This document shows, piece by piece, positions 15,632 through 35,132 of a DNA stretch of 64,000 bases. The notes under the pieces are model-generated. The model was given only the letters and a program-made list of their open reading frames with translations. It ran no database searches and was not told the origin of the DNA. Location: positions 1 through 64,000 of the forward strand of contig JAICQO010000002.1 in the NCBI GenBank assembly GCA_025937835.1. The letters run 5' to 3'. The DNA is from Polyangiaceae bacterium (GTDB taxonomy: Bacteria; Myxococcota_A; Polyangia; Polyangiales; Polyangiaceae). The position numbers were made by a program, and so were the translations under genes. How positions within the stretch are numbered: the first letter of the stretch is position 1; each line of letters begins with the position of its first letter.

Positions 15632-15640
15632 TCAGGCGTC
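15612..15640 (-). repeat. 15-bp tandem duplication spanning the exporter stop codon
   Basis: CTGGCTCAGGCGTC occurs at 15612-15625 and again at 15627-15640. Read on the minus strand it is the last codons of the exporter gene (Asp-Ala-stop), an extra Ala-Ser, then Asp-Ala-stop again, all in frame. The second copy is therefore a spare stop. It looks like a simple replication-slippage duplication. Confidence 0.7.
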
Positions 15641-16495
15641 TCTGGGCGGGGTGCGCGGCGGCCGCGCGGTCAAGAGCAGCAGCAGGGCGAGGCACAAGGG
15701 AACGCTGACGACGCCCAACAAGGCGCGATGGCTCGGTTGGTAGCGCCCGAGACCCCACTCGAGCAGCACCGCCAGCGGCAGCTCGAGGTAGAGGAAGGGA
15801 GCCGAACGGGACAGCGGAGCCATCGCGGTGGCTCGATCGAGCGCGTAGAGCGCGAACAGGCCGAAGATGCCGATCGACACCATCACCAAGGCGTCGCGCA
15901 GTGTCGGGGTGATCCACAACGCCGGCATGAACGGCAGGAGCGCGAGAAACGGCCCGAGCGCCGTGTAAAACAGGTTCGCGCTCGTGGGCTCGTTGCGGAG
16001 CGACCGCGTCATGACCACATAGGCGCTGAAGGTGAGAGCCATACCGAGCGGGAAGATCGCCACCGAAGCGGGCGTGAGCGGCCCGCGCCCCGTCATGAGC
16101 AGCGTACCGAAGGCGGCGAGCAGCGCGACGCCAGCGTCCGCCGCGCCGGTTGGTTCCCGCAGAAACGCCGTCGCCAGGCCCATCACCAGCAGCGGCGAGA
16201 GCCAAAAAATCATCATCAACGTCGACTGTGGGACGCCGGACTGGACGGAAAAGACGTAACAAGCCGGCATGCCCAGCATGAGCAGTGAGCGCGCGGCTTG
16301 AAACGCCGGGCGCGTGGTCCGCACCAGCACCCGCGGTGTGCGGCGGAACAGGGCCCAGAGGAACAGCAGGTGCACGCCGTAGCGCGTGAACACGACCTGA
16401 AACGGGGAGTAGCGAACCAGCACGCCCGCGGCGACGGCCTCGATCAGCGCCCACACGGCCGCGAACGTGGCCATGAGCAGCAGCGGGCGGCGCAC
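15632..16495 (-). CDS. DMT-superfamily (EamA) transporter, probable product exporter
   Basis: 287 residues with about ten membrane helices in two related halves (e.g. FAAVWALIEAVAAGVLV and the second-half start PLGMALTFSAYVVMTRSL), the EamA layout. Such proteins move small metabolites across the inner membrane. The GTG start lies 2 bases after the stop of the last PKS gene, with GGAAGG about 9 bases upstream inside that gene, so it is translated from the megasynthase mRNA. This context makes export of the polyketide-peptide, or resistance to it, the likeliest role (inference). Confidence 0.82.
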   Translation of the reverse strand: MRRPLLLMATFAAVWALIEAVAAGVLVRYSPFQVVFTRYGVHLLFLWALFRRTPRVLVRTTRPAFQAARSLLMLGMPACYVFSVQSGVPQSTLMMIFWLSPLLVMGLATAFLREPTGAADAGVALLAAFGTLLMTGRGPLTPASVAIFPLGMALTFSAYVVMTRSLRNEPTSANLFYTALGPFLALLPFMPALWITPTLRDALVMVSIGIFGLFALYALDRATAMAPLSRSAPFLYLELPLAVLLEWGLGRYQPSHRALLGVVSVPLCLALLLLLTARPPRTPPRDA

Positions 16496-30740: not shown

Positions 30741-30744
<4 letters not shown>

Positions 30745-33700
30745 GAGCCACCCAGTCGACGCAGCAGCGCGGATTCGACCTCTGCTTCGCTCATGCGGGA
30801 GACGGCGTCGGCGTCCAGCGCGGCCGGCGGGGCCCCGGCTTCGGGAGCCGCGGGCCCGGGCGCGGCCTCGGCCGGGGCGACGAGCTCCAGCAGGCGGCTC
30901 GCCAGAAGATCGATGGTCGGGTAGTCGAACAGCAGCGATACCGGCAGCCGCCGCGTGAGCCCGAGGCCCGTCGTGAGCTGATTTCGAAGCTGCACGGCCA
31001 TCAGCGAGTCGAAGCCGAGATCCATCAGGCGATCGTTGCGACCGGGCGGACGGCTCTCGTCGAGGCGTAACACGGCCATCACCTGCTCGCGGACGTACTC
31101 GCGGACCATGCCCAGGCGCTCCCCGGGCAGCGCGGCCTCGAGCCGCTGCCGGAAGGACTCGCCTCGCTCGAGGACCGCGGCGGCGGCCCGCGCGGGGTCG
31201 CGCTCGGCGGCTGGAGCGTCGGTAGCGGCGTCGCCGAGCGCCTCGCCCGAGACGCGCGCCACGATCACGTGCTGACCGAGCTCGTTCGCGTCGGAGCCGG
31301 GCCGCGGAAACGCTTCGGCTGCCTCGAAGCCCGCCGCGAGCAACGCGTCGACCCAGATCGGCGGCGGCAGGAGCGGGTTGTCGGTGCGCAGATCGTCCGC
31401 GAAATGCTGCCAACCTTCGATCAGCCCGGTGGTGATGTCGAACCAGTCGAGGTGGGTCGTGGACTCGACCAGCACCAGCACGCCGCCCGGCGCGAGCAGC
31501 CCGTGCAAGCGGCGCAGCGCCGCGCGAAGGTCGACGCTGGCGTGGACCGCGTTGGCCGAGACGATGACGTCGAAGCGCTCTCCTCCGTGTCCGACCGGTG
31601 CCTCGTCTTTGTCGAGGTCGAAGCGCGCCGTGGTCAAGAACGGGAAGTCGGCGAAATGCGTGCGCGCCCGATCGAGGAAAATATCGGACACGTCGCTGAA
31701 CAGGTAACGCGTTCGATCCGCGGGCAGCACCGGTAACAGCGAGCTCGTGGTCCCGCCGGTGCCGGCGCCCACCTCGAGCACCCGCAGCGTGCGGCCGTCG
31801 GGCAGCGCCTGCGCGAGCTCTTCGAACGCGGCCGCGGCCAGGCCGTTGACGTAGCGCATCGTCGTCGAACGCTCGTACAGGTCGCGGGCGAGCTCGAACG
31901 AACCGCCGGGGAACAAGGTCTCGAGCGGGCTCTCGCGCCCCGTGAGCACGTCCCCCGCGAGCGAGCAGCAGTGCTTGAAGTAGGCGAAGAGCTGGCGATT
32001 GTCGGCGAACGCGCGCTCGGCCTCCGCCCACAGCGCCTCGAGCCCGGCCGGGGTCAAGCCAGCCGGAGCGCGATAGTGCTCGCCGTCACGTTCGAGCGAG
32101 CCCTGCTCCACGAGGCCGTCGAGCCAGCGCTTGACGAGGTGCCGGTAAGCGCCGCCGATCTTCGCCCGTTCGAGCACGGTTTCGAGCGTGTGCGCCTCGC
32201 CCGCCGCGCCGAACAGGCCCGCGGCGCACAGGATCGCCGCGGCGTTCTCGCGGGTGAGCCGCGCGAGCAGCCGCCATTTCTCGGGATACGAAGCAGCGGC
32301 GAGGTCCAACGGCCCGCGCAAGGATTCGCGCTCGAGCTTGTGCGAAAACCGCAGCCAGCGCTCGCGGACGTTGCTCCGCGGCTGCGATGCTCGGCCGAAA
32401 GTCGGCGACCAGTGCCGATCTTTCCGGAAAGGGTAACCCGGCAACGCGAGCCGGCGCGGCGCGCTGCGTCCGTCGAAGCGCGCCCAGTCGATCTCGGCGC
32501 CGCCGACGAACAGCCGCGACAGGCTCTCGAGCAGGTCCGACCACGCCGGACGATCACGGCGCAACGACGGCAGCCATTCGACGCTGGCAGAGACGCACTC
32601 CGCGCCGAGGCCGAGCAGCACCGGGTGCGGCCCCACCTCGACGAAGTGGGTGATGCCCTGTCGCACAGCCGCCTCGATAGACTGCGCGAAGTGCACGGGT
32701 TGGCGCATGTGCGACAGCCAGTACTCGGTGCGCCCGACCTGGTCCAAGCCCGCGACCCCGCCCGTCAGGTTCGAGATGAACGCGCAGCGCGGCGGCGTCC
32801 ACTTCACGCGCTCGAGCGCCGCGGCAAGCCCCGGGATCAGCGGCTCGACGCGTGGCGAGTGCGACGCGTAGGGCACGCGCAGCAGCTTGGCGCGGATGCC
32901 GCGCGCCTCGAAGCGGGCCAGCAGCGCCTCGACCTGGGAGCGCTGACCGCTCACGACGACGTTCTCCGGCCCGTTGTAGGCGCCGATCGCGATCTCGCCG
33001 CCGAGCGCCGCGATCTCGGCGGACACGGCTTCGGGCGAGGCGAACACGGCTCCCATGCCGCCGCCGGGCTCGAGCTCGTCGGTGAGCCGGCCGCGCTCGG
33101 CCACGAGCGAGAGGCCGTCTTCGAGCGAAAACAATCCGGCGACCTGGGCCGCGGCGTACTCACCGAGGCTGTGGCCGAGCACGGCGTTCGGCTCGATCCC
33201 CCACGATCGCCACAGCTCCGAGAGCGCGTACTCGACGGCGAACGTCGCGGGCTGGGCGTACAGGCTCCGGTCGAGCGGAGAGGCCTCGCCTTCCGAGAAC
33301 ATCGCGTCGAGCAGGCCGCGCGGCAGCTTGCGATCCAGCACCGCGGCGCACGCGTCGATCGCCGAGCGGAACACTTCCGAGGTCTCGTACAGGCCGCGCG
33401 CCATGCCCGGCGATTGCGCGCCGTGACCCGTGAACAGGAAAGCGATGCGCGGTCGGACGGCGCCGTCCACCTGGCCGCTGGCGAGCGCCGGGTTCGGAGT
33501 GCCTTCCCGGTAGGCGGCGAGCCCCTGCGACAGCTCGCGCGCGTCTTTGCCGACGATCGCCAGGCGATGCTCGAGCTGAGCGCGGCCCGCGTTCGCGGTG
33601 AAGCAGAAGTCGGCGAGCGGCTCGCTCGGCTCCTGCTCGAGCCGTTGCTGGTAGCTCTGGGCGAGCTCGCGCAACGAGGCCTCGGAGCGCGCCGAGAGCG

Positions 33701-35121
33701 CGAGCAGCTCCAGCGGTCGGCGCGGCGTCTCTGCGGCTCCCTCCGCGGGAGCACGGGGCGGCGGCGCCTCGATGATCACGTGGGAGTTCGTGCCGCTGAA
33801 GCCAAAGGAGCTCAGACCGGCCAAGCGCCGCCCGCCGATCTCGGGCCACGGCTCGCTCGCCGTCGCGACGCGGATCGGGTGGGTCCAGTCGATGAGCGGA
33901 TTCGGGGTACTGAAATGCAGGCTCGGAGGGATCTCGCGCCGCTGCAGGGCCACGAGCAGCTTCAACAACCCCGCAATGCCTGCGGCCGCTTCCAGGTGGC
34001 CGAAGTTGGTCTTGACCGAGCCAATCACGAGCGGCTGCGACGGATCGCGCTCGCTGCACAGCGCGGCGGACAGCGCCCCGACCTCGATCGGATCGCCGAG
34101 GGACGTGCCCGTGCCGTGCGCCTCGACCACGCCGATTTCGCGACCCGACACGCCGGCCTGGGCGAGCGCCGCGCGGATCACGGCCTCTTGCGCGGGACCG
34201 TTGGGTGCGGTGAGCCCTCCGCTCTTACCGTCCTGGTTGATCGCGGAACCGCGGATCACGCCGAGCACGCGATCCCCGTCGGCGAGCGCGTCCGAGAGCC
34301 GCCGCGCCACGACCACGGCACAGCCCTCGCCGCGCACGTAGCCGTCGGCTGCGGCGTCGAAGGTCTTGCAACGACCGTCGGGCGCCATCATGCGCGCCTT
34401 GGAGAAGTTGATGTTGAGCTCGGGCGTGAGCACCAGGTTCACGCCGCCGATCAAGGCCAGATCGCAGTCGCCGAGCCGCAAGCCCTGACAAGCCAGGTGC
34501 AGCGCCACGAGCGAGGACGAGCAGGCGGTGTCGATCGCCACCGCGGGGCCGAGCAACCCGAGAAAATACGAGATGCGGCCGGCGGCGACGCTGTAAGCGT
34601 TGCCGGTGCTCACGTAGGCGTCGATCGCCTCGGGCTCCGCGAACAACGCGCGGCCGTAGTCGCCGTTGGCGATGCCCAGATAGACGCCGGCGCGCGTGCC
34701 GGCGAGCGACGCGGGCGAATGTCCCGCGTCCTCGAGCGCCTGCCACGCCACCTCGAGCAGCAGCCGTTGCTGCGGATCCATGCTGGCGGCCTCGCGCGGC
34801 GAGATCCCGAAGAACTCGGCGTCGAAGCGATCCACGTCGTCGAGGAAGCCGCCGAAGCGCGTGGTCATCTTGCCGGGCGCGTCGGGATCCTCGTCGTAGA
34901 GCCGGCTCAGGTCCCAGCGGCTCTGCGGGATCGGCGTGATCGCGTCCGTGCCGGAGAACAACAGCCGCTCGAAGCCGGCCAGATCGATGACCCCGCCCGG
35001 TAGGCGTAGGCCGACCCCCACGATCGCGATCGGTTCGCGCGCGCGTTCGAGCTCGCTGCGGAGCCCGCGGATCTCTAGCAGCGCCCGCTTGATCGGCGTG
35101 AGCGTCTTGTCTTCGGGTGCC

Positions 35122-35132
<11 letters not shown>
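30741..35132 (-). CDS. Type I PKS module: KS-AT-cMT-ACP (no ketoreduction)
   Basis: 1463 residues. Docking helix 1-31; KS 33-460 (Cys204, VEAHGTGTS, KTNFGHLE); AT ~560-870 with GHSLGE (Ser655) and YASH at 755-758, the usual methylmalonyl signature; a C-methyltransferase region ~940-1295 with VLEVGAGTGGTTS; ACP with Ser1376 (LGFDSLMAVQLRN); docking tail RMSEAEVESALLRRL. There is no DH, ER or KR, so the beta-keto group should stay. A methylmalonyl AT plus a C-methyltransferase suggests a gem-dimethyl ketone, as in epothilone module 8. The start at 35132 has GGAG 5 bases upstream and overlaps the previous gene by 11 bases; longer in-frame starts give Arg-rich non-PKS sequence. Confidence 0.95.

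Follow-up and report, generated by a model that had tools for sequence, protein, structure and literature searches.

Which unit is made by a polyketide synthase (PKS) module that carries a methylmalonyl-type acyltransferase (AT) motif and a C-methyltransferase (MT) and no ketoreductase (KR)? This question is raised by gene P0001, located at 30741..35132 on the minus strand of a 64,000-nucleotide stretch of DNA from a Polyangiaceae bacterium (GenBank assembly GCA_025937835.1, contig JAICQO010000002.1, positions 1 to 64,000), hereafter the window. P0001 encodes module 3 of a line of nine PKS and nonribosomal peptide synthetase (NRPS) genes, all on the minus strand and each consisting of one module. 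We consider it fairly likely that module 3 makes a gem-dimethyl ketone, -CO-C(CH3)2-, with a permissive AT that probably takes methylmalonyl and/or malonyl units; the extender, the number of methyls and the retention of the ketone in the final product are what we infer from the evidence given below.

Architecture of the module 3 gene

The reading frame of P0001 is open from 35246, with the start Met at 35132 and the stop at 30741. Its three best matches in other genomes showed 60-63% identity across about 1,490 of the 1,501 residues and, because of these full-length matches, the gene is more than a chance reading frame; one of the three, from Hydrogenophaga (G001), was listed with one internal TGA. 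Pfam analysis with a domain threshold of E 0.01 identified ketoacyl-synt (residues 71-320/328-445), Acyl_transf_1 (603-918, 212 bits), Methyltransf_12 (1157-1257) and PP-binding (1383-1451), giving the order ketosynthase (KS), AT, MT and acyl carrier protein (ACP). The KS domain (33912..35036) has its active-site Cys in DTACSSSL (34509-34532), the AT (32493..33440) has its catalytic Ser, Arg and His intact and the ACP (30894..31100) bears its Ser in GFDSL (31002-31016). The catalytic residues of KS, AT and ACP are therefore found in one chain, as in a cis-AT modular PKS extension module.

In the module 3 gene there were no Pfam matches to KR, PS-DH or ADH at the same threshold. This absence of KR can be taken as real, since Pfam picked up a KR in six neighboring genes (P0002, P0003, P0004, P0005, P0007 and P0009); a search for a trans-acting KR elsewhere in the genome was not made. 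The sequence-only reading of this DNA had reported a YASH motif in the AT, an intact methyltransferase loop and no reductive domain, and all three were confirmed: YASH lies at 32859..32870, the S-adenosylmethionine (SAM)-binding loop GAGTGGTT at 31746..31769 within a complete MT, and neither KR, dehydratase (DH) nor enoylreductase (ER) was detected in the gene.

Descent of the acyltransferase and its gate residue

The same reading had called the AT methylmalonyl-type, a class whose active-site motif is GHSQG or GHSMG. The module 3 AT does have the YASH-type motif, with Ser at the gatekeeper position, and its active-site motif is GHSLG (33162..33176). By sequence, its nearest solved relative is CurL, with 309 bits versus 210 for the 6-deoxyerythronolide B synthase (DEBS) structure 2hg4; for the AT of module 1 (motif DVASH) the nearest is DEBS, and mycocerosic acid synthase is close as well. 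A tree was built from 197 AT domains, those of 280-480 residues among the 225 module pieces with an AT, after removal of the motif columns. Module 3 was placed in a large clade of 153 together with HAFH domains, and most module 2 domains, as well as those of module 1 whose gate residue is S or A, fell in the other clade, of 44. Within the window, the module 3 AT was most similar to the ATs of module 5 (44% identity), module 6 (43%) and module 4 (41%), ahead of modules 2 and 8 (35% each) and module 1 (31%). The earlier assignment is thus not upheld by descent. Judged from sequence, this is a malonyl-clade AT, and YASH is a local gatekeeper change, because the domain groups and aligns with the HAFH ATs.

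The gate was read at two positions, F200 and M121 in what we take to be FabD numbering. The window AT has Ser at the former and Thr at the latter in a domain whose structure was predicted with a predicted local distance difference test (pLDDT) score of 91.0. Alignment revealed A or S at the F200 position in 26 of the 35 KS-AT-MT-ACP modules (F in the other 9/35) and, within the malonyl clade, in 11/20 DH-MT-KR modules and 4/96 other domains with a readable residue, one of these four (L052) being itself a DH-MT-KR module with two ACPs. A plain Fisher test of gate residue against module type yielded 3e-17 on rows that are related by descent. Replacement of M121 followed the same direction: 23/35 in KS-AT-MT-ACP, 5/21 in DH-MT-KR, 3/33 in DH-MT-ER-KR, 1/41 in DH-ER-KR and 0/24 in KS-AT-KR modules.

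The effect of such changes can be judged from engineered synthases. According to PMC8058987, F310S alone made a malonyl-specific AT of the epothilone synthase (AT3 in module 4) accept both extenders, with 36% epothilone D, a proportion that was 43% with F310S + H308V and 25% with F310S + H308Y; its authors state there that changing HAFH to YASH or VASH by itself does not completely reverse specificity. In the opposite direction, the change of YASH to HAFH in DEBS led to ATs using both extenders (PMC6164871). Since the gate mutants of both systems use both extenders, mixed malonyl and methylmalonyl use, and not methylmalonyl specificity, is by analogy a fair prediction for the window AT.

Small gates were also seen in module types other than that of module 3. 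The AT of module 5 has SFAAH, and LAAH or FAAH occurs in seven other DH-MT-KR modules (G001, G005, G007, G010, G011, L047 and L079) of the 21, with ASH or AAH in three more (G006, L043 and L075); a myxobacterial KS-AT-DH-MT-KR module (L209) has SFASH. Separately, a myxobacterial ACP-KS-AT-MT-ACP at the start of an NRPS (L205) has a methylmalonyl-type AT (GHSMG, DVASH) and no KR, which would make it a less ambiguous candidate for the use of methylmalonyl with one methyl from SAM.

The methyltransferase and its substrate pocket

The MT domain (31212..32363), which includes the N-terminal helical part, is of the CurJ type. Its predicted structure (pLDDT 91.6) matched the CurJ C-methyltransferase (C-MT) with Z 41.6 (372 aligned residues, 2.8 Å), followed by CitS (38.9) and DszA (38.8). 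Besides this fold and the SAM loop, it has the His-Glu dyad of these enzymes, with His in NAVHA (31539-31553) and Glu in LVEST (31458-31472).

Phe2105 and Leu2108 of CitS are listed as substrate-pocket residues in PMC11579551, where pocket residues correlate with the methylation mode in fungal non-reducing PKSs. Both positions were mapped onto the window MT by sequence alignment. At that of Phe2105 it has Thr, the residue being Phe in CurJ and CitS and Ala in DszA, and at that of Leu2108 it has Ile, where CurJ, CitS and DszA all have Leu. We then compared 36 MTs from KS-AT-MT-ACP modules with 78 from modules with KR or DH. Thr occupies the Phe2105 position in 33/36 of the KR-less MTs, versus Phe in 53/78 and Val in 25/78 of the others. 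Similarly, the Leu2108 position is Ile in 34/36 versus Thr in 74/78, and a Trp beside the pocket that is present in 78/78 of the DH/KR-module MTs is replaced in 35/36 of the KR-less ones. The pocket segment that sets the KR-less modules apart is TTGLIEGWQ in the window (31407..31433), versus mostly (T/I)(F/V)GLTEGWW in the DH/KR modules. Six further MTs of the 120 kept stand outside this comparison: L037 and L039 (truncated KS-AT-MT, T/I/Q), L065 and L081 (KS-AT-MT, F/T/W), L083 (F/T/W) and L032 (KS-AT-MT-ACP-thioesterase, M/M/Q).

The pocket triplet T/I/Q was found in 7 of the 9 modules with F at the gate and in 18 of the 26 with a small gate, six more of the latter having T/I/R, E or G. These residue changes would be explained by a widened MT pocket with room for an alpha-methyl substrate.

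Chemistry proposed for module 3 and its alternatives

According to the proposed mechanism, the module 3 KS would extend the chain by one unit, for which the open-gate AT (F200 to Ser, M121 to Thr) would probably take methylmalonyl-CoA besides, or preferentially over, malonyl-CoA. Methylation of the beta-ketoacyl-ACP by the MT would continue until its alpha-carbon is quaternary; one SAM methyl on a methylmalonyl unit and two on a malonyl unit would end in the same product. With no KR the ketone would stay, and -CO-C(CH3)2- would be handed to module 4, which would fully reduce its own beta-carbon. A retained beta-ketone is the natural reading because the KR is absent. The doubly methylated carbon beside a retained ketone that had been predicted from the sequence therefore stands as regards the missing KR, the complete MT and a gate change that is common in such modules, but not as regards the methylmalonyl-type AT on which it was partly built.

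The same gem-dimethyl product would arise if the AT loaded malonyl-CoA only, with both methyls coming from SAM and the gate change being neutral drift. Its closeness to CurL, its place in the malonyl clade and its GHSLG motif speak for this, as does the fact that the special MT pocket is retained, fully or almost, in 8/9 F-gate modules (seven with T/I/Q and one with A/V/Q; the exception is L053, a non-family module with F/I/W). Moreover, methylmalonyl is not required for a gem-dimethyl group, because one MT-containing module of the epoxyketone synthase methylates a malonyl unit twice, as described in PMC5719088. However, drift alone accounts poorly for a small gate residue in most KS-AT-MT-ACP modules and for an M121 replacement that is far rarer in other module types, and the catalytic Ser, Arg and His, kept in 35/35 of them, speak against a decay of the AT domain; malonyl loading alone thus appears doubtful to us. 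Most PKS C-MTs, CurJ among them, methylate once, and module 5 has a small gate residue where one methyl only fits, so that an alpha-methyl beta-ketone, obtained either from malonyl plus one SAM methyl or from methylmalonyl with an idle MT, has also to be considered. Against it, the KR-less modules have an MT pocket unlike the one found in DH/KR modules of the same lines, and the latter modules are limited to one methyl if their DH works; the dyad, present in 36/36 cases, would hardly persist in an idle MT. We regard a single methyl as unlikely. A larger extender such as ethylmalonyl in an enlarged AT pocket, from which the MT would make a mixed quaternary carbon, could be suspected from the four window AT motifs that depart from the malonyl consensus (GHGAQ, QPATF, RLT and YASH). 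Nevertheless, no crotonyl-CoA-carboxylase-like gene was present among the window and flank genes scanned (a genome-wide search was not made), and the range of the orthologs from F to A/S argues against one fixed large substituent, so that this explanation seems very improbable.

Several observations weigh against a gem-dimethyl ketone made with a permissive AT, which we still favor. The gate pattern amounts to only 8 changes on the AT tree, that is, few independent origins, and an independent-pairs test, although underpowered, was not significant (median p of 1 for KS-AT-MT-ACP, 0.5 for DH-MT-KR and 0.5 for both). Module 5 (DH-MT-KR) has a similar gate, SFAAH, and no room for two methyls: at most one fits if its dehydratase works. 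As a gem-dimethyl group there would block dehydration, a small gate alone does not count methyls. The pocket signature, for its part, is not an established mark of dimethylation. DszA, the KR-less actinobacterial L167 and the myxobacterial L214 have Ala at 184 and Trp at 191, KR-less terminal modules with a thioesterase (L210-L212) have Trp at 184, and outside the family the signature differs, as the above-mentioned triplets of L053 and L032 illustrate. In addition, minor epothilone congeners are reported to arise from malonyl at C4 (PMC8058987), and to judge by this analogy double methylation is not obligatory for an MT that accompanies a methylmalonyl AT. Finally, although a strong match to methylmalonyl-CoA mutase (E 1e-150 or better) was found in 16/17 small-gate versus 4/8 F-gate genomes (p 0.023), this comparison used a post hoc cut-off, comprised 25 genomes with many metagenome-assembled ones among them and was uncorrected for relatedness, and Hydrogenophaga intermedia is an exception, with a small gate and no strong match. 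These 25 were taken from 27 genomes, those of L082 and L077 being left out as non-family, and the set was free of the genomes of other KS-AT-MT-ACP loci.

In both module 3 and module 5, the alpha-carbon would end without a stereocentre, as a quaternary carbon in the former and in a trisubstituted alkene in the latter. Because of this shared feature we tentatively suggest that selection for AT fidelity may be released where the MT makes the methyl source irrelevant, a Phe gate then drifting to Ala or Ser with the same outcome from malonyl and methylmalonyl. If this were true, the metabolic pools that supply the methyls would differ between phyla while the product of the line stayed the same. 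Extender units are commonly predicted from AT motifs; in module 3 the motif says methylmalonyl and the descent malonyl, and both gate states occur in modules of equivalent position whose MT is little changed. The family is thus a natural experiment on the evolution of AT specificity with an MT downstream and calls for caution when the products of MT modules are predicted from motifs, and its apparently loosened AT selector makes the methyl source of module 3 a testable question.

The nine-module line and its surroundings

Head and tail sequences that were taken by eye for docking parts suggested the gene order P0005, P0004, P0001, P0003, P0002, P0009, P0008, P0007 and P0006, the last with the thioesterase (TE). 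The corresponding modules stand in that very order, as a single run, in the Hydrogenophaga (G001) and Rhodopila (G003) clusters; in other clusters of the family the NRPS end is split off, or one module is extra or missing. We have therefore adopted it as the working order, which is supported by this sequence comparison. Pfam assigned KS-AT-KR-ACP to module 1 (P0005, 41565..46073), whose AT belongs to the methylmalonyl clade in the tree, KS-AT-DH-ER-KR-ACP with AT motif NYAFH to module 2 (P0004, 35122..41568), KS-AT-DH-MT-ER-KR-ACP with SHAFH to module 4 (P0003, 23089..30744) and KS-AT-DH-MT-KR-ACP to module 5 (P0002, 16498..23073). Module 6 (P0009, 59704..64000) is KS-AT-DH-KR-ACP and runs past the window end. 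These are followed by NRPS module 7 (P0008, 54755..59707), TubC-C-TubC-C-A-PCP, by module 8 (P0007, 50317..54762), KS-AT-KR-PCP, and by NRPS module 9 (P0006, 46088..50272), TubC-C-A-PCP-TE, where C, A and PCP are condensation, adenylation and peptidyl carrier protein domains. The A-domain codes of the line, DILQVCVIW in module 7 and DIVQICQIW in module 9, resemble glycine codes, and the former is presumably glycine-like. Module 7 has two TubC docking and two condensation domains ahead of a single A-PCP, and C-C-A is also present in the Rhodopila, alphaproteobacterial (G005) and Hyphomonas clusters. If the line is collinear, the module 1 hydroxyl would be delta to the ketone of module 3, and a six-membered hemiketal is possible. 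No named product of the line was recognised in the literature searched.

A thioesterase gene lies just upstream of the nine genes, beyond the window end (L005:1193-2038). Downstream of the line are a gene for an EamA-family transporter (15632..16495, minus strand, by Pfam) and a GNAT gene, followed by genes that include those for rubrerythrin and for the T and P proteins of glycine cleavage. The window EamA protein shares 36-38% identity with EamA-like proteins within 3 of 12 longer-read clusters, only one of which passed the Pfam EamA model. Further upstream, a polysaccharide-flippase-like gene (L005:9955-11565), a glycosyltransferase (L005:16242-17273) and an asparagine-synthase-like gene (L005:17088-19307) look as if the line adjoins a polysaccharide locus. 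The G005 cluster has a polysaccharide-flippase-like gene, a phosphopantetheinyl transferase and an alpha/beta hydrolase (L104:3692-5167, L104:5265-6146 and L104:19122-19928), and genes resembling these were also seen by eye in G010 and G004.

Distribution in other genomes

The three MT domains of the window were aligned and used to scan a genome collection, and the best 80 of 245 places gave 77 distinct loci, whose domains were annotated with profiles built from those of the window. The order [DH-(MT-)ER-KR], [MT only], [DH-(MT-)ER-KR] was found in 28 of the 77, four of which (L028, L031, L034 and L068) have one neighbor cut by an end; module 4 is without MT in L015 and L034, and module 2 has an MT in L030 and L036. 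L021, L025, L026, L033 and L062 are family-like but cut or broken and were kept outside the 28, the many broken frames of the Piscinibacter copy (L062) being probably sequencing errors. In 12/12 longer-read clusters the KS-AT-MT-ACP module stands between [DH-(MT-)ER-KR] modules, which is no independent count as the clusters were picked from such loci.

The carriers belong to four named phyla, Pseudomonadota (including Hydrogenophaga, Rhizobacter, Rubrivivax, Rhodopila, Hyphomonas, Oceaniovalibus and Methylonatrum), Chloroflexi, Acidobacteria and Verrucomicrobiota. Among 19 relatives of the window genome the best MT match had E 7e-40 (32% over about 350 residues) and the next E 1e-9 over 128 residues, and 3/299 genomes from the family of G001, including two carriers that were known before, gave matches at E 1e-80. 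This patchy occurrence suggests horizontal spread of the line. A plasmid collection contained three cyanobacterial records at 34-39% identity, which were taken as outside the family. In Methylonatrum (G008; L113-L115) no mutase match was found at E 1e-20, and its line has F at the gate in all six ATs read, including that of module 1.

Comparison with known systems

The C-MTs of CurJ, CitS and DszA share with the module 3 MT the fold, the SAM loop and the His-Glu dyad, and differ from it at the two pocket positions where it has Thr and Ile. At the other end of the line, the predicted tail recalls that of crocacin, in which a Gly - hydroxybutyrate - Gly end follows an unsaturated polyketide; no sequence was compared and no link is claimed.

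The module make-up of the epoxyketone PKS is KS-AT-MT-ACP without KR, and module 3 has the same. Furthermore, in the eponemycin and epoxomicin systems one MT module converts malonyl and two SAM methyls into a dimethyl beta-keto unit (PMC5719088). In a comparison made by description and not by sequence, that module ends the chain and feeds an acyl-CoA dehydrogenase, whereas module 3 is internal, further modules following it in the window and in 12/12 clusters. No EpnF-like acyl-CoA dehydrogenase was found by Pfam among the nine PKS/NRPS genes, the TE, EamA and GNAT genes and 20 flank open reading frames (ORFs), the other ORFs and the remaining genome being unscanned. Both facts led us to reject an epoxyketone warhead. 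Around the matches in the classes of two non-family loci (394 genomes for L082, 147 for L077), no epoxyketone cluster was recognised in 12 + 16 stretches, and the clusters of L210 and L212 (KS-AT-MT-ACP-TE) showed no obvious dehydrogenase gene in an ORF list that was not Pfam-scanned. Yersiniabactin synthetase is a further dimethylating system.

In epothilone module 8, an AT and an MT give a gem-dimethyl group beside a ketone, and the KR there is inactive. The sequence-only reading had drawn this parallel while noting that the KR of module 3 is absent altogether, which is correct; the two modules consequently do not share a KR that is present but inactive. They also differ in that epothilone AT8 is methylmalonyl-specific (PMC8058987) and the AT of module 3 belongs to the malonyl clade. 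Epothilone AT4 (HASH) has Ser at the gate, as module 3 does, and takes both extenders (PMC8058987); its promiscuity is visible as epothilones C and D, whereas in module 3 it could be hidden by the MT. The chemistry proposed for module 3 is of a known kind, and the same module recurs in distant bacterial phyla.

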